A stretch of DNA of 40,907 bases from Ignavibacteria bacterium (GCA_030835085.1 JAUQWQ010000073.1:1-40907), one strand, 5' to 3'. Numbered from the stretch's first letter, positions 3,552 through 33,758 are shown. Numbers and translations are program-made. The notes: a model not told the origin generated them from the letters alone.

Positions 3552-3565
3552 AGATTAAATTATCT

Positions 3566-3591: not shown

Positions 3592-3624
3592 CTAGATTAC
3601 ATTCATGGTGTTTTGATGATGTAA

Positions 3625-3650
3625 GCTTCCCAAACTGGAGTTTGGGAAGC
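3625..3650. repeat. Palindrome, 12-bp arms, CCCAAACT core
   Basis: Arms GCTTCCCAAACT and AGTTTGGGAAGC around GG, between lepB and hemW. Third copy of the CCCAAACT/AGTTTGGG core within 1.3 kb. Confidence 0.85.
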
Positions 3651-3681
3651 AGATGTTTAGCCAGAACAAGTGGTTATTCAA

Positions 3682-14830: not shown

Positions 14831-14861
14831 TATCATTAAAAAAACACGATTTTTAATACTA

Positions 14862-14906
14862 TGTAAATTAATTATCAAAAAATTTCATATTTATTGATTA
14901 TATTTG
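14862..14906 (+). promoter_or_regulatory. Promoter cassette, copy 2 of 3
   Basis: TGTAAATTA at 14862, then TTATTGAT and the -7 box TATATTTG at 14899-14906. The 37-base spacing is the same as in copies 1 and 3. A strong AGGAGG ribosome binding site follows before the ATG at 14934. Confidence 0.65.
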
Positions 14907-14933
14907 GAATAACCTAAATATAGGAGGCGGCTT

Positions 14934-17108: not shown

Positions 17109-17138
17109 CAACAATACAAAATACGATTATTAAATCTA

Positions 17139-17183
17139 TGTAAATTAGTTATTAATAATTTCATAAATTATTAATTATATTTG
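17139..17183 (+). promoter_or_regulatory. Promoter cassette, copy 3 of 3
   Basis: TGTAAATTAG at 17139 and -7 box TATATTTG at 17176-17183, again exactly 37 bases apart, followed by GAGTAAACC and ACAGGAG before ATG 17210. It probably drives the 17210 and 19400 genes together, since the latter has no cassette of its own. Confidence 0.65.
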
Positions 17184-17209
17184 AGTAAACCTAAAACAGG
17201 AGTTAACCT

Positions 17210-19387
17210 ATGAAGACCTGTATACTATCTCTTCTTCTATTTGCAGCAACAAATATTTACTCACAGCAGTCCGGCTGGGTATACCAGTATCCAAAGATCA
17301 CTAACTTAGGTATTTCTGATATTGTTATTATAAATCCCACAACTGCATATTCACTTGGTGGCTTCAGTGCTTTCACTAAAACGACAGATGCGGGTTTGAC
17401 CTGGAGCAATAGTATTTCTTCTTCGGAATATACAGGAATGACACCCGAAAGGCTTTTCGCTCTGCATTTTGTCAATTCGTTAACAGGATGGGCTGTAGGC
17501 TATAATAATGCGCAACCTCCTTTACGGATCTTTAAAACAACAAATGCCGGAGCAACCTGGGTCAGGCAGGGAGAGAATCTTGTCAGTTCATATCTTCAGG
17601 ATGTTTTTTTTCTTAACGAAAATACCGGTTGGGCTGCAGGTCATTTAAGAGTTTTCAAAACTACAAACAGCGGTTTAAACTGGACTGATATTCAAATGCC
17701 CAATAACAACCAAATGTTTTCAATTTATTTTCTGAATGAAAATACAGGTTTCGCAACGGGTGAATATTGGACATACAAATCTACCAACGGAGGTTTGAAC
17801 TGGAATGTTTGTTACACGGCGGCCAATTCAAGATACTATTCTATTAAATTTATTAATGATAATACCGGCTTTATGTGCGGGGATTATTCCAACAAAGCAA
17901 GAATTGTTAAAACAACCAATGGCGGCACAAACTGGGTCATAAAATATGATGCTGTATCAGATCAACTCAATTCAATGCACATCTTTTCCCCGGCAGAAAT
18001 AATTGCTGTTGGCGGTAAATACGATGGAGCTGAAAAAATAGTCAAATCAACTGATGGAGGGGAAACATGGAATGATATTTATACGGACATTCCTAATAAA
18101 GAAATATTAATAACTTTAGCTTTCTTTGATCAGAACACAGGCATTGCGGCGGGATATGACGGTAAAATGATAAGAACTACGAATAAGGGTATGAACTGGA
18201 GCGAAGTAAATCCTCAAAATTACAGGATGAGAAGTAACTCTGTATATTTTAACAACAGCCTGAATGGGATTCTTTCTTGTGAATATGGTAAAATATTCAA
18301 AACATCCAACGGTGGTTTGAACTGGGATAGTTTAAGTATACCTACAACAGAAAGCATATTAAATGGCTACAATTTTGGCAACAGAATATATCTTATCGGT
18401 TTTAGTTCTTTTTACAGGAGCATTGATAATGGAAGTACCTGGCAAAATTACCCTTTAGGCAGAAATGTGTATTGCTCTGAATTTATAGATCAGGATAATG
18501 GTTTTATTTTTGGAAATATAACAGGACAATACTGGAGCTTTAATACTTTTTTCCGGACTTCAAATGGAGGATTAAGCTGGGATTCAGTTTCAATACAGGA
18601 TTTTCCTTATGCCATGAAATTTATAAACCCCCAAACGGGCTTTATATCCGGAGGTAATACAGGTTATAATACATTTTTATCTAAAACTACAAACAGCGGA
18701 ATAAACTGGACCAAACATAATGTGAGTGGTATTTACAAAAAAGCTAAAAGCATTTCATTTATTAACGAAAATATTGGCTGGATTGGATGTGACGAAAATG
18801 TTCTTATAAAAACGACAAACGGGGGAGTAAATTTCCAGATACTGGATTTCGGAAGACCGCAATCCTGGACAACCCCGAAAGTATTCTTCAGAGATGAGTA
18901 TAACGGTTGGGCAGCAGTAAATAATCCTTCTGGTCAATTGTTAAATACTACAAACGGGGGTTTGAACTGGCATATACAGTTTGATTGTGGTACAGCAGGG
19001 ATCAGTTCATTTCATTTTATTGACAACAATACAGGATGGTGCGGTGGATACGGTTTTGTGCTTAAGACAACAAATGGCGGAAATTATATTACATCAGTAT
19101 CCGTAACAGGTGAAATGATACCTGGAAAATACTCAATTTCCCAAAACTATCCAAATCCGTTCAATCCGGTAACGAATATTAAATTTGGCATTCCTAAATC
19201 AGGATTTGTTAAAATTACGGTTTATGATCTGCTGGGGAGAGAAGTAATATCTCTTGTCAATGAGCAAATGCAGCCGGGAAGTTATAATGTGGATTGGGAT
19301 GCATCGAATTATCCCAGTGGAGTATATTTTTACATGCTTGAGTCAGGTAATTACTATGAATCAAAAAAAATGGTTTTGATAAAGTAA
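17210..19387 (+). CDS. T9SS-sorted Asp-box repeat protein 3
   Basis: 725 aa, third paralogue. Signal peptide MKTCILSLLLFAATNIYSQ. Fourteen Asp-box motifs, the most regular set of the four: KTTDAGLTW, KTTNAGATW, KTTNSGLNW, KSTNGGLNW, KTTNGGTNW, KSTDGGETW, RTTNKGMNW, KTSNGGLNW, RSIDNGSTW, RTSNGGLSW, KTTNSGINW, KTTNGGVNF, NTTNGGLNW and KTTNGGNYI. This again suggests two seven-bladed propellers. The C-terminal T9SS sorting domain (QNYPNPFNPVTNIKFGIP ... KKMVLIK) has the short final hairpin (LESGNYYESKK). Its DNA is very close to that of copy 2's sorting domain although the propellers have diverged. Confidence 0.87.
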   Translation: MKTCILSLLLFAATNIYSQQSGWVYQYPKITNLGISDIVIINPTTAYSLGGFSAFTKTTDAGLTWSNSISSSEYTGMTPERLFALHFVNSLTGWAVGYNNAQPPLRIFKTTNAGATWVRQGENLVSSYLQDVFFLNENTGWAAGHLRVFKTTNSGLNWTDIQMPNNNQMFSIYFLNENTGFATGEYWTYKSTNGGLNWNVCYTAANSRYYSIKFINDNTGFMCGDYSNKARIVKTTNGGTNWVIKYDAVSDQLNSMHIFSPAEIIAVGGKYDGAEKIVKSTDGGETWNDIYTDIPNKEILITLAFFDQNTGIAAGYDGKMIRTTNKGMNWSEVNPQNYRMRSNSVYFNNSLNGILSCEYGKIFKTSNGGLNWDSLSIPTTESILNGYNFGNRIYLIGFSSFYRSIDNGSTWQNYPLGRNVYCSEFIDQDNGFIFGNITGQYWSFNTFFRTSNGGLSWDSVSIQDFPYAMKFINPQTGFISGGNTGYNTFLSKTTNSGINWTKHNVSGIYKKAKSISFINENIGWIGCDENVLIKTTNGGVNFQILDFGRPQSWTTPKVFFRDEYNGWAAVNNPSGQLLNTTNGGLNWHIQFDCGTAGISSFHFIDNNTGWCGGYGFVLKTTNGGNYITSVSVTGEMIPGKYSISQNYPNPFNPVTNIKFGIPKSGFVKITVYDLLGREVISLVNEQMQPGSYNVDWDASNYPSGVYFYMLESGNYYESKKMVLIK

Positions 19388-19399
19388 ATTCGTACTAAC

Positions 19400-21613
19400 A
19401 TGAAAAAAATAATTATATTAATGATTTTGTTTTGCTGCTATACAGCAATAAAAGCTCAGTCATCCGGTTGGTTCTTTGTAAATCCTCAGCCAACCAATAT
19501 GACATTGAATAGTATTAAATTTTTAAATCAGAATACTGCAATTGCAATTGGGTACTACGGGACTGTATTCAAAACTACTGATGGCGGAATGAACTGGAGC
19601 AACCCAATGACAATATCGGCAAACACAGGTCTGGATAAACTGCATTTTTTTGATATGGATTTCTTTAACCAGAATACAGGGTTCATTATTGGAGACAATT
19701 CCGGTGGAGTTTCCAAACTGTTTCAAACGACAAACGCAGGCATTACATGGACAGGTATTTCGAAATTTAATGGATTAGCACGTGCTATGCATTTTATTAA
19801 CCCATTTACCGGCTGGGTAGGTAATGGAATTCAAATGTTAAGAACAATAAACGGAGGTGCAGCCTGGCAAAATGCTTCAACTACATTCCCTTCCGGGATC
19901 AGAAGTATTTTCTTTATTGATCCGATAACAGGGTTTGCAACTGCTTCAAATAAAATTTTCAAGTCATCCGATTCAGGGTTAAACTGGCTGCTAGTGGATT
20001 CTCCTTCGGGAGGAGATTTTAATGATCTCTTATTCCTGAATTCTCAAACGGGTTTTGCTGTTGGAGCAGGTTCAAACAGTATTATTAGGAAAACAACCAA
20101 TGCCGGAGAAACATGGTCAACAAAGCTAACAGGTAATCTTACAGGTACTCTCAGCTCTATTTATTTTATTAATACTGTCACAGGATTTGCTGCCGGTGGT
20201 GGTTATGATAATCCGCCGCCTGCTATTTTTAAAACTACTGATGAAGGTGAAACCTGGAGTCAGATACCGATTACTGCAGCTTATCATATCAACTCAATAA
20301 GTTTTTCTGCAAATACCGGAATAGTTGTTGGATATGGAGGAAAAATAGGACTCTCAACTGACCAGGGTTCGAGCTGGACATTCACTGAATCGATATTACA
20401 GCAGAACCTTACCTTTGAGCCATTAAGCTTTATAAATGAAAATACAGGCTGGTTATCATGCGCTGGTTATACAGGGCAATCACCCATGTACAGGTCAACA
20501 AACGGCGGGTTGAACTGGGTGAATATATATATGACATCACCTTCTCCTGACTGGATGCAGTTTCTAAACGCTAATACAGGTTATTATAGAAGCGGCAATA
20601 CACTGCTTAAATCAACCAACAGCGGGTATAATTGGTTACAGATTACTCCTCTTAATATTACCGTAAACACGATCAACTTTTCTGATGTAAATACAGGCTA
20701 TGTCTGCGGGTATACAACTCCGCCGATCCGTCCAAGACTTATTAAAACAACTAATGGAGGCGCTACATGGGATTCAATTCATGTTACCCCTGATTATTCA
20801 GCTATTACTACATTCAATTTTATTAATGCAAATACGGGTTGGGTGAGTATATCTTATTTAGTTTACCCTATGGGTACTAACAGCAAAATTTATAAAACTA
20901 CAAATGGAGGATTGAACTGGAATTTCCAGAGGCTGGATACTAATGCTTCACATAACAAGATCAGTTTTATCGACAATTTAACCGGGTGGGCAGCCATCAG
21001 TGATTTTAATACTACGTCAGGCAATATTATCAAAACTACTGACGGAGGCAATAGCTGGATCACTCTTCCTCTGCGTGTATTAAGAGGCAGGTTCCAGTTC
21101 GTTAATCCAAATACCGGATGGGCAGAAGATGAATCCGGATCGTTGTATAAATCAACAAACGGAGGTTTGAGCTGGTATGTACAGGTTGATCTTGGTTTAG
21201 CGGGTATAGAGAATATGCAGTTTATTAATTCCAATACAGGGTGGATTGTCGGGGATGGTGGCCTTATTGTGAAGACTACAAATGGTGGAGAATTGGTAGG
21301 TATATATAATATATCTACTGAAAAGCCTGAACAATTTTCTATCTCCCAAAACTATCCGAACCCGTTTAATCCTGTTACAAACATAAAGTTCGATATTCCA
21401 AAGTCAGGCTTTGTGAAAATTACAGTCTTCGACCTGCTTGGCAGAGAAATAACTGCTCTTGTCAATGAACAAATGCAGCCGGGAAGTTATAATGTTGATT
21501 GGGACGCGTCAAATTATCCCAGTGGAGTATATTTTTATAAACTCGAAGTCCGTCAAGCCGGATCTCCGACAGGTGATTTTGTTGAATCAAAGAAAATGAT
21601 TTTGGTGAAATAG
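19400..21613 (+). CDS. T9SS-sorted Asp-box repeat protein 4
   Basis: 737 aa, fourth paralogue. It starts only 12 bases after the stop of copy 3, with no promoter cassette, so it is almost certainly the second cistron of that mRNA. Signal peptide MKKIIILMILFCCYTAIKAQ. Fourteen Asp-box motifs (KTTDGGMNW, QTTNAGITW, RTINGGAAW, KSSDSGLNW through KSTNGGLSW and KTTNGGELV). The T9SS sorting domain (QNYPNPFNPVTNIKFDIP, DLLGREI, SGVYFYKLE, final KKMILVK) carries the longer last loop VRQAGSPTGDFVESKK. A binding or adhesin function is inferred; no catalytic site was seen. Confidence 0.86.
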   Translation: MKKIIILMILFCCYTAIKAQSSGWFFVNPQPTNMTLNSIKFLNQNTAIAIGYYGTVFKTTDGGMNWSNPMTISANTGLDKLHFFDMDFFNQNTGFIIGDNSGGVSKLFQTTNAGITWTGISKFNGLARAMHFINPFTGWVGNGIQMLRTINGGAAWQNASTTFPSGIRSIFFIDPITGFATASNKIFKSSDSGLNWLLVDSPSGGDFNDLLFLNSQTGFAVGAGSNSIIRKTTNAGETWSTKLTGNLTGTLSSIYFINTVTGFAAGGGYDNPPPAIFKTTDEGETWSQIPITAAYHINSISFSANTGIVVGYGGKIGLSTDQGSSWTFTESILQQNLTFEPLSFINENTGWLSCAGYTGQSPMYRSTNGGLNWVNIYMTSPSPDWMQFLNANTGYYRSGNTLLKSTNSGYNWLQITPLNITVNTINFSDVNTGYVCGYTTPPIRPRLIKTTNGGATWDSIHVTPDYSAITTFNFINANTGWVSISYLVYPMGTNSKIYKTTNGGLNWNFQRLDTNASHNKISFIDNLTGWAAISDFNTTSGNIIKTTDGGNSWITLPLRVLRGRFQFVNPNTGWAEDESGSLYKSTNGGLSWYVQVDLGLAGIENMQFINSNTGWIVGDGGLIVKTTNGGELVGIYNISTEKPEQFSISQNYPNPFNPVTNIKFDIPKSGFVKITVFDLLGREITALVNEQMQPGSYNVDWDASNYPSGVYFYKLEVRQAGSPTGDFVESKKMILVK

Positions 21614-21766: not shown

Positions 21767-23854
21767 ATGGACTTCATAAAACATCACTCCTCATTGCCTG
21801 AAAACATCCATCCGCGCCTTTGTATATTTCTGAATAGAATGTTCAAATTGTTCAAGGAAAAAGCACTGGTTCCTGTAATTTTGATTTTATTTTTTACAGG
21901 TACAGAATTGTTCGCCCAAAGCTGTTATCACCCCTACATTGACTCAGTGATTTCACTGGTTTCCCTGTCTTCCTTATCGGTTTTTGAGAATGAACTTACC
22001 GGGGAAATACCTGTTAATATTGAAGGAGAACCATATACGATCTTTTCAAGATACTGGAAAAGCGATGGTAATAAAATGGCAGCTCAATATATTTTCAGTA
22101 AATTGAGGAGTTATGGTCTTGAAACCCGCTACTGGAATTATAGTCAGACGGGGACCAATATTATCGCGGTAAAGCGGGGTATTAAATATCCGAATCAGAA
22201 AATTGTATTTTGTGCGCATTATGATAATATTGTCCGCGATATAGTCCCGGATACTACTTATGGTGCAGATGACAACGCTTCGGGTACCAGTGCAGTACTT
22301 GAAGCAGCAAGGATACTCAAAGACTTAGTGTTTGATTATACTATAGTTTTTGCGGCCTGGGATGAAGAAGAGACCGGATTGTACGGAAGCAGATCATATG
22401 CAGATACCTGTTTCAACAACAGGGATTCCATTGTTGCTGTAATTAACCTGGATATGATAGGTTGGGACGGGAATAACGACGGGAAAGCGGTTATTGGAGA
22501 TGATACTAATTCAGTTTACCTTTCAAAATTAATGCAAAGCGGTATTCATATCTATGTACCGGATCTTAACCCAATTATACTGAATTTTGCAGGAGGAAGT
22601 GATCAATATTCTTTTCAATCCAGAGGTTACAAGGCAATATTGTTAATAGAGGATAATGGTCTTGATTTCAATCCATATTATCATACTATTGATGAAAGGT
22701 ACAGCCATTTTAATGAGTCATATTTTGTAAACATGACAAGATCTGCAATTGCGGCATTACTTGTTATTCAAAAAGATTTTATCATAAATATTGATCATAC
22801 TCCGCTTCAATCTACAACAGATACCTCGGCCAGAATAGTTAAATCAGTCATTACTTCTAATCACAGGATAATGAGCACAAACCTCATGAAATTACCGAGG
22901 TTGTATTATAAAATTGGAGAGGGTCCTTTTTCATATGTCAATGCATTTAATGTCAGTCAGGATACATTCAGATTTCTGATACCTGCCCAGCCTCGTGGCA
23001 GCCAAATATCGTATTACATAGCGGCCCAGGATTCCCTCAGCAGCATGGTTGGTTCATTACCCGCAAGTGCCAGGGGAGTAGATCCTCCGGGTACTATATC
23101 TCCTTTAAGTTTATTTACTTACTATATTCTGGATTCACGAAGTCAGTGTTCAAATACATTACCAAAGGAGCTGCCTTCGAGGATAATTACTTATGATTCA
23201 ATTAATATTCAGCAAACGGGAAAGGTAACTGATGTTGATGTAAATCTCACTATCATGTATCAAAATGATACAAATATTGCCATCTGGCTGATAAACAGCA
23301 CGACCTCAATGAATAAATTGAGCATCTTCAACGGGGGAACAGGTGACAATTATATTAATACTACTTTTGATGATGAAGCTGATTTATCTATAACTGAAGG
23401 CACAGCGCCTTTTACAGGGAGGTACAAACCCCAGGCTCCGTTGAGTTCTTTTGTTAATTCTCAGCTGCAAGGGATCTGGAGACTGAGAGTTCTGAACCTA
23501 TCCGCTGCCGAAACAGGACAGTTGATAAATTGGTGTTTAAATATTCAGTATTTTGAACCGTTAGGAATCATCAATAACCAGGTTCCACTGAAGAGCAGTA
23601 TTTCCCAAAACTATCCGAACCCGTTTAATGCCAGCACAAGCATACAATATTCAATTGTCAGAACATCTGATGTTAAAATTATTATGTATGATGTACTTGG
23701 CAGGGAAATAAGAACTCTGATAAATACAAGGCTTTCAGCAGGGAATTATGTATTAAGCTTCAATGCTAACGATCTTGCATCGGGTTTGTATTTTTACACT
23801 TTGTTTTTAGATGGGAACCAGTTTGATTCAAAGAAAATGGTTTTAATAAAATAA
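21767..23854 (+). CDS. T9SS-sorted M28 family metallopeptidase with P-domain
   Basis: Secreted zinc aminopeptidase-like enzyme, 695 aa. The M28 core shows the two-zinc ligands in order: His in CAHYDN (about 151), Asp in GADDNASG (about 168), the general base and ligand pair in WDEEETGLYGS, Asp in NLDMIGWD and His in YYHTIDERY. It ends at about residue 335. Residues of about 460-595 match a proprotein-convertase P-domain (GKVTDVDVNLTI, NTTFDDEAD, APFTGRYKP, GIWRLRVLN, INWCLNI). The T9SS sorting domain (QNYPNPFNASTSIQYSI ... KKMVLIK) is last. The start is fixed by AGGAGG at 21757-21762, four bases before ATG. This gives an unusual 33-residue N-terminal extension before the signal-peptide core; a Met at about 25 would give an ordinary signal peptide. 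Confidence 0.9.
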   Translation: MDFIKHHSSLPENIHPRLCIFLNRMFKLFKEKALVPVILILFFTGTELFAQSCYHPYIDSVISLVSLSSLSVFENELTGEIPVNIEGEPYTIFSRYWKSDGNKMAAQYIFSKLRSYGLETRYWNYSQTGTNIIAVKRGIKYPNQKIVFCAHYDNIVRDIVPDTTYGADDNASGTSAVLEAARILKDLVFDYTIVFAAWDEEETGLYGSRSYADTCFNNRDSIVAVINLDMIGWDGNNDGKAVIGDDTNSVYLSKLMQSGIHIYVPDLNPIILNFAGGSDQYSFQSRGYKAILLIEDNGLDFNPYYHTIDERYSHFNESYFVNMTRSAIAALLVIQKDFIINIDHTPLQSTTDTSARIVKSVITSNHRIMSTNLMKLPRLYYKIGEGPFSYVNAFNVSQDTFRFLIPAQPRGSQISYYIAAQDSLSSMVGSLPASARGVDPPGTISPLSLFTYYILDSRSQCSNTLPKELPSRIITYDSINIQQTGKVTDVDVNLTIMYQNDTNIAIWLINSTTSMNKLSIFNGGTGDNYINTTFDDEADLSITEGTAPFTGRYKPQAPLSSFVNSQLQGIWRLRVLNLSAAETGQLINWCLNIQYFEPLGIINNQVPLKSSISQNYPNPFNASTSIQYSIVRTSDVKIIMYDVLGREIRTLINTRLSAGNYVLSFNANDLASGLYFYTLFLDGNQFDSKKMVLIK

Positions 23855-24683: not shown

Positions 24684-26252
24684 ATGTCAATTAATCCAAT
24701 GAAAACAATATACACAGCAATTGTTGCTCTGTTTCTGATTTGCTCAAATTTATTTTCTCAGGTAGGTTACAGCCCCCGTATCGACTCAATTGCAAATCTT
24801 GTAACACAGCAAACTCTTTCAAAATTAGACAGGGAGCTTTGCGGAGATACATCAACCATCATAGGGGGTCAGCCTTATACAATTCTATCTCGACATTCAA
24901 ATACTGCACATAACCCGAAAGCCGCACAGTTTATCTATGAGAGATTTCAGAGCTTCGGGCTGACTGCCAGGTATATGAATTACAGAACAAACGGTCAGAA
25001 CGTGATAGCAACAAAACCTGGCTCAAAGTATCCAAACCAATATTACATTATATGCGGACATTATGATGATATGCCGTCCGGCTCACTTGCACCCGGAGCA
25101 GATGATAACGCCTCAGGTACATGTGCTGTAATGGAAGCTGCAAGACTGCTTGCACCGTTCACTTTTGATTATACATTGATATTTGTTGCATTTGATGAAG
25201 AAGAGCAGGGACTTATCGGCAGCCATGCATATGCTGATTCATCATACAACAGGGGTGATTCAATCCGCGGCGTTTTGAATTTTGATATGATAGCCTGGGA
25301 TGGAAATAATGATTATAAACTGAATCTCTTTACAAACTCCGCATCGGTTAATTTTACTAACATTACTAAAGTTACCTATAACATTTATCAGCCAATACTG
25401 GATCCGGTTGTTTCAGTAGGCAATATGTCTTCCAGCGACCATTATTATTTCTGGCAGAGGGGATACAACGCTTATTGCGGTATAGAGCTGATGAGTGATT
25501 TTCATCCGTATTACCATACTGTAAATGACAATTTCGCGAATGTAAAAATGCCGTACTTCCTGAAATTTACACAGGCATCTCTTGCTGCATTAATGACTTA
25601 CGGATGGAACTATACTATCAATTTTGTCCATACTCCCATAACTGCATCAAGTGATACAGGACCAAGAACGGCAGTTGTTACAATTAATTCACCATATGCA
25701 TTAAAAAAAGTTACAAACGGTCCGAAACTGTATTACAGGGTGAACAGCGGATCATTTAACGCACTCAATTATACTTATAATAATCTCGATACATTCAGGT
25801 TCAGTATTCCCGGCCAAAGTCAGGGTTCGAATGTAGAATATTACTTTGCTGCGCAGGATTCAATGGCTAACTTTGTAGGCACACTGCCGGTTGGCGGTAG
25901 AGGATTGAACCCTCCGGGTTCAGTTGCACCGGCAACATACCTGCAATACACCGTACTTACAGGTATAGCCCAGAATAATGAACCCGCTGAATTCAGCCTC
26001 GGACAAAATTATCCTAACCCGTTTAACCCGGCAACCAGTATAGAATTTTCTGTAGGAAAATTCAGCAGGGTGAAAATTACTGTCTCCGATCTGCTTGGAA
26101 GGGAAGTAGCGGAGCTTGTTGACGTTCAGTACACACCTGGCACCTATAATGCGGTATTTGAAGGGAAGAAATATCCTTCCGGTATTTACTTCTATACAAT
26201 GTATGTTGATGGTTTGGTCACTGAAACAAAAAAAATGATGCTAGTTAAATAA
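24684..26252 (+). CDS. T9SS-sorted M28 family metallopeptidase
   Basis: Secreted zinc peptidase, 522 aa, paralogue of the enzyme at 21767 but without the P-domain. Signal peptide core MKTIYTAIVALFLICSNLFSQ; the ATG at 24699 would give exactly this, while the ATG at 24684 adds five residues, and neither has a clear ribosome binding site. Metal and catalytic motifs are all present: CGHYDD (about 127), GADDNASG (about 139), FDEEEQGLIGS (about 172), NFDMIAWD (about 199) and YYHTVNDNF (about 276). The linker has the shared VEYYFAAQDSMANFVGTLP segment. T9SS sorting domain QNYPNPFNPATSIEF ... KKMMLVK. The stop codon lies inside a conserved 3' hairpin element. Confidence 0.9.
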   Translation: MSINPMKTIYTAIVALFLICSNLFSQVGYSPRIDSIANLVTQQTLSKLDRELCGDTSTIIGGQPYTILSRHSNTAHNPKAAQFIYERFQSFGLTARYMNYRTNGQNVIATKPGSKYPNQYYIICGHYDDMPSGSLAPGADDNASGTCAVMEAARLLAPFTFDYTLIFVAFDEEEQGLIGSHAYADSSYNRGDSIRGVLNFDMIAWDGNNDYKLNLFTNSASVNFTNITKVTYNIYQPILDPVVSVGNMSSSDHYYFWQRGYNAYCGIELMSDFHPYYHTVNDNFANVKMPYFLKFTQASLAALMTYGWNYTINFVHTPITASSDTGPRTAVVTINSPYALKKVTNGPKLYYRVNSGSFNALNYTYNNLDTFRFSIPGQSQGSNVEYYFAAQDSMANFVGTLPVGGRGLNPPGSVAPATYLQYTVLTGIAQNNEPAEFSLGQNYPNPFNPATSIEFSVGKFSRVKITVSDLLGREVAELVDVQYTPGTYNAVFEGKKYPSGIYFYTMYVDGLVTETKKMMLVK

Positions 26253-26296
26253 CGAAGTTATTTAATTGCCTTGTCTCTAAGGTTAATTAAATAATC
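26245..26296 (+). promoter_or_regulatory. Conserved two-hairpin 3' element, copy A
   Basis: Hairpin 1 (TTAAATAAC, loop GAA, GTTATTTAA; 26245-26265) includes the last codons and stop of the M28 gene. Hairpin 2 is CCTT-GTCTCT-AAGG (26269-26282), followed by an ATTAAATAATC tail to 26296. A second copy follows the metzincin gene on the minus strand at 31494-31545, with identical hairpin 2 sequence and a compensated base pair in hairpin 1. Confidence 0.7.
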
Positions 26297-26342
26297 TGCA
26301 TAAATAGAAAGCTGTTCATTTAATCAATTTAAGTTAAAGGAC

Positions 26343-27818
26343 ATGAAGTATATTAATTATACTATTGCTTTGATATTTATTATACATTGTACTATTATAA
26401 ATGAATGTTGTTTCGCGCAGTGGGAGCCAGACATCCGGCTGACAAATTCATTGGGAAGATCTTATACATCATACAATAATGCAAAGTCTGTTGCGGCGAA
26501 CGGGAATACTGTGCATGTAGCATGGATAGACAAGCGTAATACCATTTTGCCCAGCGTTATCTATTACAAACGCTCTACAGACGCGGGGCTGACATGGAGT
26601 ACTGATACCGCGATGTACAACCTTAACTATGGGTTTTGTGATTTTCCAAACATTGCAGTCTCCGGCTCGTTTGTTCACATTATTTGGTTAGCAAAATATT
26701 CATTAGGCAATTATCATATAGGATATAGAAGATCTACCGATGAAGGTATAACCTGGGGACCGAGTATTCATTTAGGAAGTAACATTAATTCCCGCGAGAA
26801 TCTTAGCCTGGCCGTATCCGGCACGTATTTGCATGTTGTATGGCAGGACTATGAAAACGGCAGTGATCCTGAAATTTACTACAAACGCTCAATTGATGGT
26901 GGAACAACGTGGCAAGGGGATACACGTATTACTTTTAACACTAATAGTTCTAATTTTCCATGTATTGCAGTCTCAGGCTCGGATGTGCATGTAGTTTGGC
27001 AGGACCAAAGAGACGGAAACTGGGAAATCTACTATAAACGTTCCACAAACGGTGGTATTAACTGGGAAGCAGATACGCGTCTGACAAATAACGCTGGAGC
27101 TTCAGAGTTTCCTGCAATAGCAGTCTCCGGCTCAATTGCTCATACTATATGGAGTGACAATCGTGACGGAAATTGGAAATTATTTTATAAAAGCTCATTA
27201 GATGCCGGAACAACATGGAGTACTGAAGTACGACTAACGAATTTGTCTGCTGATTCCTGGCGTTCCTCAATAGCAATTTCCGGTTCTAATTTGCATCTTG
27301 TATGGCCTGACTCTCGTGGCGGTAATTTCAATTGGGATATCTACTACAAAAACTCTACAAACAGCGGAATAAATTGGGGAGGCGACATACGGCTGACGAA
27401 TGAGCCTGATTCTTCTGTTTATCCTTCAATTGCGATCTCAGGCTCTAATTTGCATGTAGTATGGTCTGACAATCGTGACGACGACTGGGAGATTTACTAT
27501 AAACGCAACCTAACAGGAAACATTGGCATATATGTAATATCTGCCGAAATTCCTTCGAAATTCTCTTTATACCAAAATTACCCAAACCCCTTCAATCCAT
27601 CAACAAAGATACATTTTGATGTTCCAAGAACAGATTTTGTAAAACTTGTTGTTTATGATTTTTTGGGAAGGGAAATATCATCTCCGGTAAATCATCAGTT
27701 AAAACCCGGCACTTATGAGGTTGACTTTATCGGTAGTTACCTGACAAGCGGAGTATATTTTTATAAAATATTTGTTGGTAATTACACTGAAACCAAAAAA
27801 ATGATCCTGATCAAATAG
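26343..27818 (+). CDS. T9SS-sorted seven-repeat beta-propeller (BNR-like) protein
   Basis: 491 aa secreted protein. Signal peptide INYTIALIFIIHCTIINECCFAQ. Seven repeats of about 50 residues follow, each with IAVSGSxxHVVWxDxRDGNWEIYYKRS, and six carry an Asp-box (RSTDAGLTW, RSTDEGITW, RSIDGGTTW, RSTNGGINW, SSLDAGTTW, NSTNSGINW). The seventh lacks the Asp-box and its closing (D)xRLT strand. That strand is supplied at the very start (WEPDIRLTN), the usual ring closure of a seven-bladed propeller. The sorting domain QNYPNPFNPSTKIHFDVP ... KKMILIK is at the C-terminus. It resembles sialidase-like repeat proteins, but catalytic Arg-triad and Tyr/Glu residues were not recognised, so it is more likely a binding protein. 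Confidence 0.85.
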   Translation: MKYINYTIALIFIIHCTIINECCFAQWEPDIRLTNSLGRSYTSYNNAKSVAANGNTVHVAWIDKRNTILPSVIYYKRSTDAGLTWSTDTAMYNLNYGFCDFPNIAVSGSFVHIIWLAKYSLGNYHIGYRRSTDEGITWGPSIHLGSNINSRENLSLAVSGTYLHVVWQDYENGSDPEIYYKRSIDGGTTWQGDTRITFNTNSSNFPCIAVSGSDVHVVWQDQRDGNWEIYYKRSTNGGINWEADTRLTNNAGASEFPAIAVSGSIAHTIWSDNRDGNWKLFYKSSLDAGTTWSTEVRLTNLSADSWRSSIAISGSNLHLVWPDSRGGNFNWDIYYKNSTNSGINWGGDIRLTNEPDSSVYPSIAISGSNLHVVWSDNRDDDWEIYYKRNLTGNIGIYVISAEIPSKFSLYQNYPNPFNPSTKIHFDVPRTDFVKLVVYDFLGREISSPVNHQLKPGTYEVDFIGSYLTSGVYFYKIFVGNYTETKKMILIK

Positions 27819-27843
27819 CAGTTTCTGTGTTTATTTAATATTT

Positions 27844-28353
27844 ATGCAGCACATGAAAATTAGAACTCTGGTTTTATCTGTACTCATAGCAGCAGCGGCT
27901 GCTGCCGCCGGATTTGTACCGGGTGGTCAGTTAAAACCGGAAAGATATATTCCCGGACTGGAAGGCAGCTGGGAAAAAATTAAACCCGAGACTGAGCTTG
28001 GCGGATATTATATAAAGATACGATTCGAAGGTGATAAGTTCTATTATCGTTTATATACTTATGTTGATTATATCGACGGCAAGAACCCATGTGTAAAAAA
28101 ACATGGGTGGACTGAGTATGCATACGGGGAATATTTGACTGATACAGCAAAAGTGTATTTCAATGGTAACTGGTACGATAGTACGTATTCAGTAAAGCAT
28201 GACTCCGGTTGTTTCCACACAGGAGTATTTGAAGAGAGCTATTACTTTAGGCTGGTTAGTGATACGCTTATATTAAACAGGAATGAAGCGAACTTTGATG
28301 ATAAGAAGCAGTACAATCACATATATGATAAAATGACTTTTGTAAGAAGGTAA
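27844..28353 (+). CDS. Exported protein of unknown function
   Basis: 169 aa, not recognised. The N-terminus is Ala-rich and hydrophobic (LVLSVLIAAAAAAAGFVPGG), a likely signal peptide or single anchor. The ATG at 27853 (MKIRTLV...) is a more usual start than the first ATG. The mature part is rich in Tyr and alternating strands (GSWEKIKPE, YYIKIRFEGDKFYYRLYTYVD, SYYFRLVSDTLILNR), like a small lipocalin-type or beta-barrel domain that opens with a GxW motif. Two Cys (NPCVKK and SGCFHT) may pair. No T9SS sorting domain. It lies 25 bases after the seven-repeat propeller gene, so probably transcribed with it, and is followed by a strong bidirectional terminator. Confidence 0.6.
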   Translation: MQHMKIRTLVLSVLIAAAAAAAGFVPGGQLKPERYIPGLEGSWEKIKPETELGGYYIKIRFEGDKFYYRLYTYVDYIDGKNPCVKKHGWTEYAYGEYLTDTAKVYFNGNWYDSTYSVKHDSGCFHTGVFEESYYFRLVSDTLILNRNEANFDDKKQYNHIYDKMTFVRR

Positions 28354-28380
28354 CTCCCGCTGTTTTAAAAATATAAACAA

Positions 28381-28410
28381 AAAAGCCCGGCAGTTTAACG
28401 CCGGGCTTTT
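28381..28410. terminator. Bidirectional intrinsic terminator
   Basis: Arms AAAAGCCCGGC (28381-28391) and GCCGGGCTTTT (28400-28410) around AGTTTAAC. The A-run on one side and T-run on the other let it work for both the plus-strand gene ending at 28353 and the minus-strand gene ending at 28430. Confidence 0.88.
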
Positions 28411-28429
28411 GATTTAGCTCAATAATCCT

Positions 28430-28786
28430 TTACTTTGAAAACGCTACAAAAACCGAATCGCTTCCGCCGCACTCAACCTTTTGTTTGGTTACATATATAA
28501 TAGCTTTAGGGTCAATGTAGTCAGGGTCCTGGTATTCTACTTTCACCTTAATGCGTTTACCCTGGTCATTGGCAAGATTTATTGTGTATGTCTTGCTTTT
28601 ACCAACAAGCAAATTACCTGAGGGGAAACCATCGATGGTTAAATTTATTTCAAACAACGAGTTATTTGAAACATAAATATAAGCATCGCAGTTTGCTTTG
28701 CCTGCATCAGCGTTAACTGCCGAAAAGCCAATATAAAGAACTGAGATAATTGCGATAATTGAAAATAATTTTAATGTGTTTTTCAT
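28430..28786 (-). CDS. Small exported protein of unknown function
   Basis: 118 aa from the ATG at 28786, which has AAAGGA about 9 bases upstream. An in-frame GTG at 28804 would add six residues but overlaps that ribosome binding site. Signal peptide MKNTLKLFSIIAIISVLYIGFSAVNADA. The mature protein is about 90 aa of predicted beta strands (AYIYVSNNSLFEINLTIDG, KTYTINLANDQGKRIKVKVEYQD, AIIYVTKQKVECGGSDSVFVAF) with two Cys that may form a disulfide. The layout resembles a small Ig-like or transthyretin-like sandwich. Family not recognised. Downstream of a palindrome cluster and opposite to the 27844 gene. Confidence 0.6.
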   Translation of the reverse strand: MKNTLKLFSIIAIISVLYIGFSAVNADAGKANCDAYIYVSNNSLFEINLTIDGFPSGNLLVGKSKTYTINLANDQGKRIKVKVEYQDPDYIDPKAIIYVTKQKVECGGSDSVFVAFSK

Positions 28787-28873
28787 TTTGGATAATCCTT
28801 TCACTACACAAATTTACGCAACAATTCTTGAATTAAAAATCTCATTGCATTTGCCTTGGGGTGGATAATCAAA

Positions 28874-28998
28874 CCGATAAATCGGATTGTGAGATATATT
28901 GAATAATGTCCCACGACTTTAGTCGTGGGGCGCCAATAAAGTAATGCTTTACAACCACTTCAGTGGTTTGCTATAAAATGTAATGCGATTAGAGCATT
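28874..28998. repeat. Second cluster of short palindromes
   Basis: Four different hairpins in 125 bases between feoB and the small exported protein. They are CCGAT-AA-ATCGG (28874-28885); CCCACGAC-TTTA-GTCGTGGG (28910-28929); AACCAC-TTCA-GTGGTT (28953-28968); and AATGC with GCATT around GATTAGA (28982-28998). The second shares its CCACGAC core and TTTA centre with 2242-2261. No T-runs follow them. Confidence 0.75.
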
Positions 28999-29008
28999 GT
29001 GAAGGAAA

Positions 29009-31078
29009 TTATTGTACACCCAGCAGATTCAGCCCGCGGTATGTTACAAAAGCCAGAACATAAGCCATAACCGTATATAAACCTATCTGCATTAAGGGGA
29101 TTTTCCACGAACCGGTTTCCTTGCGTGCTACGGCGACTGTCGAAAGACACTGCATTGCGAACATAAAATATATTATCAGTGCAATTGTTGATGCTGTAGT
29201 AAACAGCGGTTTTGTGCCGTCAGGTGAGCGGGCTTCTTTCATTGATGAAAGTATTGACTGCTGGAAATTATCTTCATCATCTTCACTTTCGGTTATATTG
29301 AAAGTTATTGCCATCGCACTGACAAATATCTCACGGGCAGCGAATGCTGAAATTAGTGATACACCGATGCGCCAATCCCACCCCAATGGCTTTAATACAG
29401 GTTCAAAAACATTTTTTCCAACTATTGCAGCGTATGATGTGTTAAGCCTCTCTGATTCAATTACGCGTGATATCTGTTCATCGGTCATACCAGCTGTTTT
29501 TTCTGCGGGAATAACCGGATCAACATTCGGGAAGTAAGTCAATGCCCATAACAAAAGCGAAAATAAAATAATGATGGGTCCAGCCTGCTTTACGTATACC
29601 AGAGCTTTGTAGTAAGTATTCTTAAAAATATGCCTGAATACCGGTGTACGGTAGGGGGGAAGCTCAAGCATAAATGTAGATTTCTCTTCAGTCTTTTTGA
29701 ATTTACTTATTATTCCTGCTGTTACTGCACCGGATATCAAACTGAATAAATACAATGCGCCCAAACCTATACCTGCTATCCAGGGCTTATCAGGGGGAAC
29801 AACGAAAGCCAGCAGCATTGCGTAAACAGGCAGCCTTGCGCTGCAGCTCATAAGCGGGATTATCATAATAGTAAGGAATCTCTCCCGCCTGTTTGAAATT
29901 GTTCGTGCCGCCATCATTGCGGGAATTGCGCATGCGTACCCCGATAGCATCGGTATAAATGACCTGCCGTTGAGCCCGAATTTGCTGAGCGGTTTATCTA
30001 TCAGCATTGCCGCTCTTGCAAGGTAACCGGTATCTTCAAGGAGTCCTAGTAAAATAAACAATATTACAATTTGCGGTACAAATATCATTACAGAACCGAA
30101 TCCGTTAATGATACCGTTAGTTATAAGGCTGTTGTACCAGGTATCAGCAGGCAGTGAATCAGAAACCAGAGCTGATAGATTGCTGAAACCGGCATCAATA
30201 AGATCCATAACCGGCTGCGCTATCCAGAAGATAGATGTAAAAATGACTCCCATTGAAATAATGAATATTATGATTCCCCAAAAAGGATGAAGGAATACTT
30301 TATCCAGCTTCATTGAATTTTTATCGGGAGTTCTGGAGAGGGAATGAAAGCTCTTTTTATTTATTTCATCTAGATCGAGCTTGTTATTTTTATGCTCAAT
30401 AACTTCACGTTCAGTTGTTTCGGTGTAATCATACATCTTTGCAACATCTTCAATAGAAGGGATGGCCGGTTTGTGAATTGAAGATTTAAAATCAGGTAAC
30501 TTATCCGAACAATGCAGTTCCTGCGAATACTTTATAAGCACATCAATTCCCTGTTTTGTTGTACTGTTAATTTTAACTACCGGAGTGTTTAAAATATCTG
30601 AAAGCTTTTTTACGTTTACTTCAAGCTCTTTTTTATCCAGCAGGTCATTCATAGTTAATGCTACAATTGCCCTGAATCCTGCATTTATTACCTGTTTGAC
30701 AAGGAAAAGCTGCCTCGATAGCTGGGTGGCATCACAGCTGACTATGACAATATCCGGCATACCGAATTTAGGGTGATTGAAAATTCCATCGACCGTAACA
30801 TCTTCATCAGGTGAGCCCGGGTTAAGGCTGATAATGCCGGGAGAATCCATAATATAAGCTGCAAAATTGTACTTGTTAACAAGCTTGCCAATTGAGTACT
30901 CGACAGTAGCGCCCGGGTAATTTGATGTTTTAAAATTTGAGCCGGTTAGTGTATTGAAAAGTGTCGTTTTGCCTGAATTGGGCATACCAACAAGCGCTAT
31001 TACCGGTAAATTGTTTTCTTTTGATATATTCTTAAGGGTATCTGTGTGACAGTCTTTTTCTTTAACGTTTAAAACCAT
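29009..31078 (-). CDS. feoB: Ferrous iron transporter FeoB
   Basis: Inner-membrane Fe2+ uptake protein with a cytoplasmic G-protein domain. 689 aa. G1 GMPNSGKT (residues 31-38), switch GATVE, G3 DSPG (78-81). The G4 position reads TMND (142-145), so the first Asn of the usual NxxD is Thr. The membrane part starts at about residue 260 and contains the two Gate-type segments typical of FeoB (SGYACAIPAMMAARTISNRR and the later FAAREIFVSAM). It begins 3 bases after the feoA stop, so translation is probably coupled. The operon is likely iron-regulated through the palindrome upstream of feoA. Confidence 0.95.
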   Translation of the reverse strand: MVLNVKEKDCHTDTLKNISKENNLPVIALVGMPNSGKTTLFNTLTGSNFKTSNYPGATVEYSIGKLVNKYNFAAYIMDSPGIISLNPGSPDEDVTVDGIFNHPKFGMPDIVIVSCDATQLSRQLFLVKQVINAGFRAIVALTMNDLLDKKELEVNVKKLSDILNTPVVKINSTTKQGIDVLIKYSQELHCSDKLPDFKSSIHKPAIPSIEDVAKMYDYTETTEREVIEHKNNKLDLDEINKKSFHSLSRTPDKNSMKLDKVFLHPFWGIIIFIISMGVIFTSIFWIAQPVMDLIDAGFSNLSALVSDSLPADTWYNSLITNGIINGFGSVMIFVPQIVILFILLGLLEDTGYLARAAMLIDKPLSKFGLNGRSFIPMLSGYACAIPAMMAARTISNRRERFLTIMIIPLMSCSARLPVYAMLLAFVVPPDKPWIAGIGLGALYLFSLISGAVTAGIISKFKKTEEKSTFMLELPPYRTPVFRHIFKNTYYKALVYVKQAGPIIILFSLLLWALTYFPNVDPVIPAEKTAGMTDEQISRVIESERLNTSYAAIVGKNVFEPVLKPLGWDWRIGVSLISAFAAREIFVSAMAITFNITESEDDEDNFQQSILSSMKEARSPDGTKPLFTTASTIALIIYFMFAMQCLSTVAVARKETGSWKIPLMQIGLYTVMAYVLAFVTYRGLNLLGVQ

Positions 31079-31081
31079 TTA

Positions 31082-31342
31082 TCAATTTATCTTAATACAT
31101 TCCGCTTCGCTTTTTCTTAAAGCAATAATTGTTCCGCGCACCGATACTGCAAGCGGATCCTTAAAAGGTGATTTGGCAACTACAGTTACTTCCTGACCTG
31201 GTGTGAAACCAAGCTCCATAAGTCTTAAGCAATGGCAATGCACGTCAATACAGTCATCACCAACAGAAGTGATAAAGGCTGTATCGCCTGTTTTCATATC
31301 GGCAACTGACTTAATGTTTTCTGAAATTTCCGTTTGTATCAA
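31082..31342 (-). CDS. feoA: FeoA, ferrous iron transport accessory protein
   Basis: Small SH3-like cytoplasmic protein that works with FeoB. The core is typical: MKTGDTAFITSVGDD, then HCHCLRLMELGFTPGQEVTVVAKSPFKDPLAVSVRGTIIALRKSEAECIKI. The only start upstream of the domain in this frame is a TTG at 31342; a stop (TAG) lies four codons before it. The internal ATG (residue 17) would cut into the first strand, so TTG is preferred. The Cys-rich DDCIDVHCHC stretch is a feature some FeoA proteins share and could bind metal. First gene of the feoAB operon. Confidence 0.9.
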   Translation of the reverse strand: MIQTEISENIKSVADMKTGDTAFITSVGDDCIDVHCHCLRLMELGFTPGQEVTVVAKSPFKDPLAVSVRGTIIALRKSEAECIKIN

Positions 31343-31368
31343 TATGTATTTCTAAAATTAAATAAGAC

Positions 31369-31399
31369 CAAATATGTCCAATATTTGTCAAATATTCAA
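31369..31399 (-). promoter_or_regulatory. feoAB promoter with operator-like palindrome
   Basis: A perfect palindrome, AATATTTG-n-CAAATATT, fills 31380-31396. On the minus strand it sits in the 20-base spacer between a TTG (31399-31397) and CATATTTG (31376-31369), a one-mismatch TAnnTTTG box. A third half-site, CAAATAT at 31369-31375, also pairs with the middle one. The position over the promoter spacer suggests a repressor site, by analogy with DtxR/Fur-type control of feo genes; the regulator is not in the window. Confidence 0.6.
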
Positions 31400-31447
31400 T
31401 GCAAATAACATGCAATATATGTAAAAAATTTGAAAAAATTAACAAAA

Positions 31448-31470
31448 AACCCCGGCTTTAGACCGGGGTT
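31448..31470 (-). terminator. Intrinsic terminator of the metzincin gene
   Basis: On the minus strand, arms AACCCCGG and CCGGGGTT around a TCTAAAG loop are followed by TTTTTTG. It would end the transcript of the protease gene before feoA. The core is that of the palindrome at 2346-2365. Confidence 0.8.
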
Positions 31471-31493
31471 AGTAAAACATGAATTAATTTAAT

Positions 31494-31545
31494 GATTACT
31501 TAATCAACCTTAGAGACAAGGTTTCAAAAGTAACTCCGTTACTTT
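31494..31545 (-). promoter_or_regulatory. Conserved two-hairpin 3' element, copy B
   Basis: Minus strand: hairpin 1 AAAGTAAC-GGA-GTTACTTT (31545-31527) overlaps the stop codon of the metzincin gene. Hairpin 2 is AACCTT-GTCTCT-AAGGTT (31523-31506). The tail GATTA-AG-TAATC can itself fold. It matches copy A at 26245-26296; the A-T pair in hairpin 1 of copy A is a G-C pair here. Confidence 0.7.
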
Positions 31546-33758
31546 ATCAAAATCATTTTCTTTGAATCAACGAAATCGCCTGCCTCTATTCTGTAGTAGT
31601 AAATACCGCTCGGTAATCTTGAAGCGTCGAATTCATAGTTATAATAACCCTCTGTCCTTATTTCGTTATTAATAAGTACAGCGGCTTCTCTGCCAAGAGC
31701 ATCGTACACTTTAAGTGTTACTGTTGATTTTTTCGGCAGGGCGAAGCTTAATATTGTTACCGGGTTGAAAGGATTCGGGAAATTCTGTGATAACCCGAAT
31801 TCTACAGGAGTACCGTTCTGGTTTGGCTGAATACCAATAGAAGCTGTAATTGTGAAGTTTGCATTTGACATATCAAAGAAAATATTATCAATCGCTTCAA
31901 TTTTTATTCTTGCTGTAGTGTTCTCAATTGCAGGAAGTGTAACTGCTTCAGAACCGTCATTTGGAGTGTTTGCTGCAAGTACTGTGGGGAAAGTATTACC
32001 GCCATCTGTTGAAAGCGTTATTTTTACATTCGCGCAGTTTACAGGTGCAGCTGTTGTGTTTGCAACATCCCAAGTAACAGTCTGCCCGCCGCCAATTGTT
32101 ACATTGGTGTTGGGGAAAGTAACAAGGAACGGACCCGCTGTGCCTGTTGCGAAAAATACTATTTCTTCCGAAGCAACGCCGCCGCCGCCTGCGCGGTTAT
32201 CTCTTACGGTCAGTCTGAATTTCAGCATTCTGTCGTATGTAGGAAGTAATTCACCGAGTGTTTGTGTGTTGTTCAGTATGTCTGAAAGTTTCGGGAATAA
32301 TCTTGTTCCGTCATTTACCGGTGAAAACGGCCTGAATATAGGTGCGTTTCCTGAAGGTGAATTAGGGTGACCCTGCGGACCTGTATTTACCTGCTCCCAT
32401 GAATATGTAAGAGGGTCGCTGTTGGGATCTGTTGCAGTGCCTGTTAAACTGAAAGGAGTTGATTTTGGAATTGTCCAGCCCGCTGCCGGCATTGTAACTA
32501 CCGGAGCGTTGTTGCCGGTATTTGTTGTAACTGGGCAGTTGTTGCCATTTCCGAACTGGGTGAACGGAAGCATCTCAACAAAAAGATTACCGCCGTGCAA
32601 ATACGGAATACTGTTGTTAGCAAGATTCGGAGCACATACTCCAGCATAACCCATAATTGTTATTCCGCTGCCGGGCTCCCATGCAGTTGGGGGATTCGCA
32701 TTACAGCTTGTATTGTTCTGTGTATGGTTACCCGAGAACTGGTGTCCCATTTCATGAGCAACATAATCAATTGACCACGGGTCACCAACTGGTGAAGTAG
32801 AACCTGTAGCGCCTCTGCCTTTTTGGCCGGCAACACATACTACTGAAAGTCCAGCAATACCGCCAAAACTTCCGGTACTGAACACATGTCCGATATCATA
32901 ATTTGCTGTTCCGATCACGTTATCAAGATTGTTCTGGTTTTCAGTAAGCATTGCGCTTCCGTTGTTGTTTGTATAAGGATCTGTGCCGCCATTTGTGTAG
33001 ATAATTGAAGTTTCATTGGCTATCAGTATAAGTCTTACAGCCATGTCAGTTTCATATACACCTGTTACCCTGTTAACTGTGGTAGTAACTCTGTCTAAAG
33101 CATTTGCCTGGCCGCCAAGCAATGTTGTGAACTCACCTGTGCATGCCACTGCAAGCCTGTAAGTTCTAAGCTGTTCACCTGTTCTGCTTACAATATTGCT
33201 GTAAACAGGCGGGTTTGAATCAGTTTCTGTTAAACATACAAAATTCTTTTCAATTGCCGGACGGAAGTCATCCCTGTAATATGACATATAATACTCAGTT
33301 TCATTCATACTGAAGGGGTCAATAAAAACTGATCCGTTGTTTGAAAGTATCATTGCGTGGAATCCCATAGGAGTGAAATCAAACCTGATAACAGCATTGG
33401 GGTCATCAATTCCCTGGCCGAGATATGTTTTTATATCGGGGTATTGAGCCGCAAGCTCAGGTGCCATAACGGGCGATTCAACAAATCTGAATCTTGCCAT
33501 TGTACCGTTTGGCATTGGGAGTGATATAATTGTGTTCGAGTTCTTTACTCTGACTGCCGACTCCATTGGCGCAGTCCTTAGCAGGTTCAAAAGTTCTGCC
33601 CTGTTCAGCTGAACAGTACGGTAAGAAACCGGCGCAAGGTACACGGTACCCTTTATGGTAAAACTGCCGGGCTGTACATCCTGCCACATGCTGTTATTTG
33701 AAAGTACTGAGGTGCTGAGTGCTGTTATCAAAAGAATTACGGAAAATAAAAATTTCAT
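31539..33758 (-). CDS. T9SS-sorted reprolysin-like (M12B-type) zinc metalloprotease
   Basis: Secreted metzincin protease, 739 aa. A signal peptide (MKFLFSVILLITALSTSVLS) and a prodomain of about 150 residues are followed by the protease domain. It contains the zinc motif HEMGHQFSGNH (His 335, 339, 345; Glu 336) and a Met-turn MGYAG (Met 369). After it come an Ig/PKD-like segment (TGTATDPNSDPLTYSWEQV, about residue 430 on) and a second beta-rich domain. The T9SS sorting domain (QNFPNPFNPVTILSFALP ... KKMILIK) is last. The gene stands alone on the minus strand, with its own terminator and the conserved 3' element. With the two M28 enzymes it makes three secreted metallopeptidases in 12 kb. Confidence 0.9.
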   Translation of the reverse strand: MKFLFSVILLITALSTSVLSNNSMWQDVQPGSFTIKGTVYLAPVSYRTVQLNRAELLNLLRTAPMESAVRVKNSNTIISLPMPNGTMARFRFVESPVMAPELAAQYPDIKTYLGQGIDDPNAVIRFDFTPMGFHAMILSNNGSVFIDPFSMNETEYYMSYYRDDFRPAIEKNFVCLTETDSNPPVYSNIVSRTGEQLRTYRLAVACTGEFTTLLGGQANALDRVTTTVNRVTGVYETDMAVRLILIANETSIIYTNGGTDPYTNNNGSAMLTENQNNLDNVIGTANYDIGHVFSTGSFGGIAGLSVVCVAGQKGRGATGSTSPVGDPWSIDYVAHEMGHQFSGNHTQNNTSCNANPPTAWEPGSGITIMGYAGVCAPNLANNSIPYLHGGNLFVEMLPFTQFGNGNNCPVTTNTGNNAPVVTMPAAGWTIPKSTPFSLTGTATDPNSDPLTYSWEQVNTGPQGHPNSPSGNAPIFRPFSPVNDGTRLFPKLSDILNNTQTLGELLPTYDRMLKFRLTVRDNRAGGGGVASEEIVFFATGTAGPFLVTFPNTNVTIGGGQTVTWDVANTTAAPVNCANVKITLSTDGGNTFPTVLAANTPNDGSEAVTLPAIENTTARIKIEAIDNIFFDMSNANFTITASIGIQPNQNGTPVEFGLSQNFPNPFNPVTILSFALPKKSTVTLKVYDALGREAAVLINNEIRTEGYYNYEFDASRLPSGIYYYRIEAGDFVDSKKMILIK

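Follow-up and report, generated by a model that had tools for sequence, protein, structure and literature searches.

Comparison with known palindromic repeats

The 3′ ends of tRNA genes are docking sites for genomic islands, whose insertion restores the displaced end. The repeat described here comes from a 40,907 nt stretch of DNA of an Ignavibacteria bacterium (GCA_030835085.1, JAUQWQ010000073.1), the whole of which is referred to as the window. It is a unit of two hairpins that lies over the stop codons of genes whose products carry the C-terminal sorting domain (CTD) of the type IX secretion system (T9SS). It is probably a small mobile palindrome, resembling the repetitive extragenic palindromes (REPs) and the miniature inverted-repeat transposable elements (MITEs), with the unusual niche of replacing a gene ending by an equivalent one. 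No description of this repeat was found in the literature, chiefly open-access, that was searched, the parallels found being with REPs and MITEs.

REPs are palindromes of 20-50 nt present in many copies, a description which fits the two-hairpin unit of approximately 43 nt. Like the repeats of the REP-associated tyrosine transposase (RAYT) systems, or REPtrons, it is a short stem-loop palindrome, tandem or clustered in the manner of bacterial interspersed mosaic elements and mostly downstream of coding regions, and RAYT-like genes flanked by their own palindromes do occur in this genus. However, it has neither the GTAG/CGTC tag nor the scattered intergenic distribution of REPs, and unlike the REP/RAYT repeats it has two hairpins per unit, the second of them interchangeable, and keeps to a single kind of gene end. 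With the GTAG REPs, the REP termini sometimes supply a stop codon, and G·T pairing in REP stems has been noted as a sign of function at the level of transcription (PMC3733652). Hairpins of E. coli REPs lying 15 nt or less from a stop codon are reported, in work cited in PMC12306157, to lower translation of the upstream gene; with the present repeat, unlike these, the stop codon lies inside the 5′ hairpin arm and appears to have come with the repeat.

Classical MITEs occupy discrete filled and empty sites, as this repeat does. Unlike them, its insertion in a gene leader is without target-site duplication and the ends of the unit (TTGAT...TAAGG) are not inverted repeats. MITEs derived from insertion sequences (IS) of the IS200/IS605 type have two subterminal hairpins and give no target duplication, which is similar to the two hairpins and the discrete gain or loss at the leader site seen here; however, these insert 3′ of a fixed 4-5 nt target, whereas no constant motif lies directly 5′ of this unit, which also has no long internal region and for which no matching IS ends were found. 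Rickettsia palindromic elements (RPE) and the NEMIS/Correia MITEs are small palindromes that may lie within or be fused with open reading frames and form RNA stem-loops (PMC2229807). Unlike these, the unit adds no peptide and would replace the last codons by an equivalent Leu-Ile-Lys-stop (LIK-stop).

The two copies in the window

A first-pass annotation of the window had reported that the end of an M28-type peptidase gene (26245-26296, plus strand) reappears at the end of a metzincin-type peptidase gene (31494-31545, minus strand), and a check of the sequence located both copies at these positions. Hairpin 2 (CCTTGTCTCTAAGG) is the same in both, and the A-T to G-C swap in hairpin 1 is present with pairing kept. 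Hairpin 1 is real but had been drawn too short, its stem reaching back over the last three codons (Leu-Ile/Val-Lys), while the tail following both copies (TTnATTAAnTAA) is indeed common to them and can be described further as a copy of a LIK-stop gene end. The M28 gene end reads CTAGTTAAATAAC-GAA-GTTATTTAATTG-CCTTGTCTCTAAGG-TTAATTAAATAATC and the metzincin gene end reads TTGATAAAGTAAC-GGA-GTTACTTTTGAAA-CCTTGTCTCTAAGG-TTGATTAAGTAATC. Arm A is formed by the last three codons, the stop codon and one further base, and A′ is its inverted copy past the GAA/GGA loop; H denotes the second hairpin and A2 the tail. The features are as follows:

24684-26252, plus: M28-type peptidase gene with T9SS CTD (assignment of the first-pass annotation); last codons CTA GTT AAA TAA within the repeat
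26241-26253, plus: hairpin 1 arm A (CTAGTTAAATAAC), with the stop codon (26250-26252) inside
26254-26256, plus: GNA triloop (GAA), M28 copy
26257-26268, plus: hairpin 1 arm A′ (GTTATTTAATTG), M28 copy
26269-26282, plus: hairpin 2, H (CCTTGTCTCTAAGG), M28 copy
26283-26294, plus: A2, LIK-stop-like tail (TTA ATT AAA TAA), M28 copy, read as the displaced original gene end
26241-26282, plus: putative inserted unit [A A′ H], 42 nt, M28 copy
31539-33758, minus: metzincin-type peptidase gene with T9SS CTD (assignment of the first-pass annotation); end TTG ATA AAG TAA within the repeat
31538-31550, minus: hairpin 1 arm A (TTGATAAAGTAAC), with the stop codon (31539-31541) inside
31535-31537, minus: GNA triloop (GGA), metzincin copy
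31522-31534, minus: hairpin 1 arm A′ (GTTACTTTTGAAA), metzincin copy
31508-31521, minus: hairpin 2, H (CCTTGTCTCTAAGG), metzincin copy
31496-31507, minus: A2, LIK-stop-like tail (TTGATTAAGTAA), metzincin copy, read as the displaced original gene end; terminator 25 nt away, as in empty orthologs
31508-31550, minus: putative inserted unit [A A′ H], 43 nt, metzincin copy, from ortholog comparison
31450-31470, minus: separate intrinsic terminator (AACCCCGGTCTAAAGCCGGGG then T6), 3′ of the metzincin repeat and kept in orthologs

A repeat family of the genus

A two-hairpin covariance model was built from six copies, with the metzincin copy included and the M28 copy not. In the genome of the window it gave 36 matches at E ≤ 1 and 22 at E ≤ 1e-4 (best 4e-19), comprising the M28 and metzincin copies (E = 5e-19 and 1e-8) and 34 others. 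The exact sequence CCTTGTCTCTAAGG occurs only twice in this 4.05-Mb genome, both times at these gene ends, with a third, related copy found when mismatches are allowed. As the sequence is unique to two sites and the model matches both of these and 34 more, the shared stretch is not a product of chance. The covariance-model scan, extended to related genomes, revealed a real structured family: all genomes of the genus searched have matches (G004 weak ones only), and at E ≤ 1e-4 there are matches in 12 of 13 genus genomes and in G013, G025 and G029 of the same order, these counts being lower bounds since just 132-150 candidates per genome are scored.

The unit consists of a GNA-loop hairpin A/A′, the 5′ arm of which (TTGATAAAATAAC) reads Leu-Ile-Lys-stop in frame, followed by the second hairpin H. 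The GNA loop is present in 57 of 91 hairpins, and in the stem of many units there are tandem G·A/A·G mismatches where others have Watson-Crick pairs. H exists in several unrelated self-paired versions (CCTTGTTTCTAAGG, TCCGGCTTTGACGGA, TCCCGCAAGGCGGGA, TCTGGATTTGACAGA) and orthologs differ by swapped H sequences. At some loci the repeat forms tandem arrays with a period of approximately 43-45 nt. Variants were also seen: L041 (G009) and L216 (G005) have intact hairpin 1 arms with an enlarged loop (~17-nt insert) or extended stem, and in the metzincin ortholog L323 (G006) the hairpin 1 over the stop codon has a GAAA tetraloop and the second part is truncated, which possibly marks an independent or decaying copy.

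Location of the repeat

Nearly all copies begin at one spot over the stop codon of genes ending KKMxLIK-stop or LVK-stop, these being T9SS CTD genes. The matches thus fall at gene ends, overwhelmingly behind T9SS cargo genes, but the link to proteases drawn in the first-pass annotation does not hold, as the repeat is found on many kinds of CTD gene. Its frequency was determined in a 0.82-Mb sample of two genomes. The sample comprised the window, 400 kb from the start of one G002 contig, and several contigs of G000, some of these already known to contain a copy. By a strict pairing count, hairpin 1 is present on 11 of the 79 CTD gene ends in this sample, leaving approximately 86% of CTD genes without the repeat; by gene ending, the carriers are 8/29 for IK, 3/31 for VK and 0/12 for LK. 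The repeat was found on no end of approximately 580 other genes, the few non-CTD ends passing the pairing count being unrelated inverted repeats, and every match at E<0.01 in this sample belongs to a CTD gene end or to an array following one. The gene ligA shares the LIK-stop ending without being a T9SS gene; it bears the repeat in three species, G000, G005 and, in decayed form, G002, and has a LIK-stop end free of it in G010.

A nearly invariant copy is located upstream of the start codon in five T9SS propeller genes of four genomes, each a different species. With one unit found both in 5′ leaders and at the 3′ ends of T9SS genes, it is conceivable that a mobile element adapted to the conserved 3′ ends of T9SS cargo genes, and bringing a replacement C-terminus and stop, doubles as a transcribed RNA module recognised in trans. 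We regard this as doubtful; if true, insertion would place cargo genes under shared control at the post-transcriptional level.

A conserved leader of approximately 140 nt (CCCGAGCCTTGATGCTGATTTTCCGC...) precedes many T9SS propeller-like genes (L046, L067-L069, L074, L150, L309-L317). Directly before the start codon it has the repeat, another hairpin (AAACTTTC...GAAAGTTT) or nothing, with no Rfam match, and it looks like a candidate 5′ regulatory leader by itself. Two matches to the Acido-Lenti-1 RNA above the Rfam gathering score flank a T9SS gene in L074 (G005; 1349-1393 and 3641-3685).

Filled and empty sites

On comparison of orthologous sequences, the unit was shown to be present or absent as a block, adding approximately 43 nt between stop codon and terminator, with the LIK-stop-like tail standing where empty orthologs have their stop. 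In a pair of leaders, the filled site reads ...AATCCTG[TTGATAAAATGATGTTATCATTTTAGAAACCTTGTTTCTAAGG]CGGAAAA in G009 and the empty site ...AATCCTGCCGGAAAA in G002, the junction being CCTG[43 nt]CGG against CCTGCCGG, with no target duplication. One G012 leader retains a deletion remnant. With the metzincin gene, the orthologs of G001, G002, G003, G004 and G008 are without the repeat and have their terminator 21-28 nt from the stop codon, as against 68 nt in G000 and 63 nt in G005, which have the repeat; measured from A2, the latter distances become 25 and 21 nt. The same applies to the CTD genes fetched, where the median stop-to-terminator distance is 74.5 nt for filled and 28 nt for empty genes (p = 2e-10), while filled genes measured from A2 have a median of 29 nt, not differing from empty ones (p = 0.68), with a median offset of 44; these distances are from genes in which a simple finder recognised a terminator (38 of 96 filled, 41 of 269 empty). 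Most species of the genus are without the repeat on orthologs of the same cargo. In the metzincin ortholog of G003 (L330), a frameshift ends the CTD early at KK-stop and places LIK-stop out of frame, possibly due to a pseudogene or an assembly error.

The probable original gene end

At the penultimate codon, where Ile and Val predominate, the Ile:Val ratio is 48:44 for empty genes; A2 has 27:25 and A has 50:16. It is A2, and not A, that resembles an ordinary CTD end, which argues that the present last codons and stop arrived with the repeat. The original gene end would then be A2, some 44 nt downstream of the present one, as we infer from sequence comparison. The M28 locus agrees with this: the present end in G000 is LVK, whereas LIK is found both in its A2 (LIK-stop) and at the end of the G002 ortholog. 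Duplication of the gene end as a target site (A = A2) was rejected, as A/A2 identity is no higher than in shuffles and the Ile:Val make-up differs.

The pairing partner of A′ is A, not A2: informative sites favour A by 250:23, in units selected for a good A/A′ hairpin. Joint arrival of both arms accounts for this, stepwise selection on RNA not being needed. The superior fit of A′ to A would also be expected of template-switch (quasi-palindrome) mutagenesis, in which snap-back DNA synthesis on the gene's own A yields A′, with neither selection nor transposition. In LVK genes A′ is LVK-type, which that process would also give, and A2 is mostly V-type (12/14). Template switching nevertheless explains neither the common second hairpin H, nor the gain of 43 nt together with a further LIK-stop tail, nor the differing Ile:Val make-up of A and A2. 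It also fails with the copies in non-coding leaders, which already suggest an A/A′ block in an unrelated context, and is considered very unlikely.

Simple duplication of the gene, which the first-pass annotation had discounted, or of a segment is excluded by the coding composition of filled and empty CTD genes. The only strong differences concern codons -2 and -4 and which Leu codon is used at -3; from -5 upstream the codons are close to identical apart from two weak differences at -8 and -10. As composition differs essentially in the last four codons only, duplication of a long CTD segment as vehicle was also rejected. The same result largely refutes a spread in which gene conversion or shuffling acts on CTD-coding 3′ ends over long tracts and takes the repeat along. 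Such conversion would be in keeping with the T9SS restriction and with the occurrence of V-type units mainly on V-type gene ends; however, neither ligA nor the leaders have a CTD, and we give this explanation little credence. The V-type units on V-type old ends (the 12/14 above) point to some dependence on gene-end homology. Short-homology recombination at LIK-stop, which overlaps with a mobile palindrome as explanation, is possible.

Covariation and RNA role

Over 117 matches, 93.8% of cells are paired (helix 1, 92%; helix 2, 98.9%), with 204 double-change cells; shuffling gives 58 ± 6 and sliding the partner gives 4-34. The alignment is fitted to the model and hence leans in its favour. A long alternative hairpin A′-H-A2, the minimum-energy fold, was discarded as A′ and A2 do not covary (565 paired cells against 553 ± 9 shuffled). 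A comparison with Rfam gave no match above the gathering score in the window, and neither there nor at the leader copies was a riboswitch or other known RNA recognised. The repeat is also not an intrinsic terminator, having an AU stem, with separate canonical terminators downstream where one was recognised. Among hairpin 1 mismatches, G·U outnumbers A·C 23 to 9 (p = 0.02, with symmetric hairpin picking), a modest bias which hints at some constraint on the transcribed strand; an initial count of 30:4 was discarded as biased by hairpin selection, and in 33 elements picked by hairpin 2 the ratio of 11:6 is not significant.

The first-pass annotation had suggested an mRNA stability or localisation element for secreted proteases or a regulatory RNA family, of which the structured family stands. 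A dedicated stability or localisation element for T9SS cargo is not supported, in view of the roughly 86% of CTD genes without the repeat, the many empty orthologs and its presence on ligA. An explanation along the lines of the first-pass annotation is a cis-acting RNA element of the 3′ untranslated region (UTR), for example an mRNA stabiliser or a protein-bound modulator of translation termination, selected on T9SS cargo mRNAs. This would suit the constant position over the stop codon, the strong covariation of both helices, the G·U excess, the frequent GNA triloop and the near invariance of the leader copy in five T9SS genes of four species. However, the repeat is not general to the regulon, being absent from most CTD genes and metzincin orthologs, and is carried by ligA; the second hairpin is swapped between orthologs, tandem arrays occur, and covariation with the gene's codons is accounted for by joint arrival of the arms. 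Such an element is therefore unlikely as the primary explanation, although the repeat possibly has a secondary RNA role, judging from the G·U excess.

Proposed mode of spread

If the repeat is a mobile palindrome, as we favour, the unit would enter T9SS CTD genes at their conserved '...KKMxLIK-stop' end, or immediately ahead of it, and supply new last codons and a stop, displacing the old end downstream. Such insertions would have taken place repeatedly within one Ignavibacteria lineage. LIK-stop would be regenerated and the secreted protein left almost unchanged, making the many near-identical CTD ends a safe docking site. Spread may proceed via the hairpin, via short homology to TTGATAAA or via both. 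Once in place, the unit would add hairpins to a presumably transcribed 3′ UTR, and a secondary effect on mRNA stability or translation termination may follow. GNA triloops are especially stable in DNA hairpins, a lead which would suit a single-stranded DNA substrate.

Several points weigh against a mobile palindrome. No autonomous partner or transposase was found, 28 Y1-transposase loci being without a convincing hairpin-1 match, and no constant target tetranucleotide is apparent, the flanks varying (CCTG, GATG, GATA, AAGG). There is no GTAG/CGTC tag, with GTAG near 5 of 83 units and CGTC near 1 of 83, and the copies are not scattered through intergenic DNA as with ordinary REPs. In the leaders, the unit could have been lost from G002 and not gained elsewhere. 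The old end, A or A2, is not directly readable from any one locus, and the selection of units in the A′ test and the G·U excess also count here. Orthologs are often all filled (L048/L080/L096), and some copies must therefore be old or repeatedly replaced.

With regard to a source, Y1/RAYT genes are present in nearly all genomes of the genus. At L249 (680-1710; G002:C13), a RAYT-like Y1 transposase gene lies between palindrome arrays which include the H motif CCTTGTTTCTAAGG. This is the sole Y1/RAYT locus flanked by the H motif; none of those examined is flanked by hairpin 1, and the Y1 transposase loci examined are accordingly not favoured as source of the repeat. Several other RAYT-like genes of the genus are flanked by their own, different palindromes (GTAG-tagged in L241).

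Other features of the window

Four related T9SS CTD genes with propeller-like repeats lie in tandem at 12665-21613. These are followed by two tandem M28-type T9SS peptidase genes (21767-23854 and 24684-26252), with the repeat on the second only. At 3562-3654, a different palindromic repeat, inverted and with 36-nt arms (CCAAACTGGAGTTTGG type), sits between two genes.

Significance

Bacteria with type IX secretion can have hundreds of genes with the same last few codons. The repeat suggests that a mobile palindrome can find its niche in a gene ending so over-represented, being made harmless by restoring the ending it displaces, as at tRNA 3′ ends. It also urges caution in reading strong covariation of base pairs in a coding region as selection on RNA, since both arms can come together. 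With both filled and empty sites at hand, the gain, loss and effect of the repeat are directly testable.

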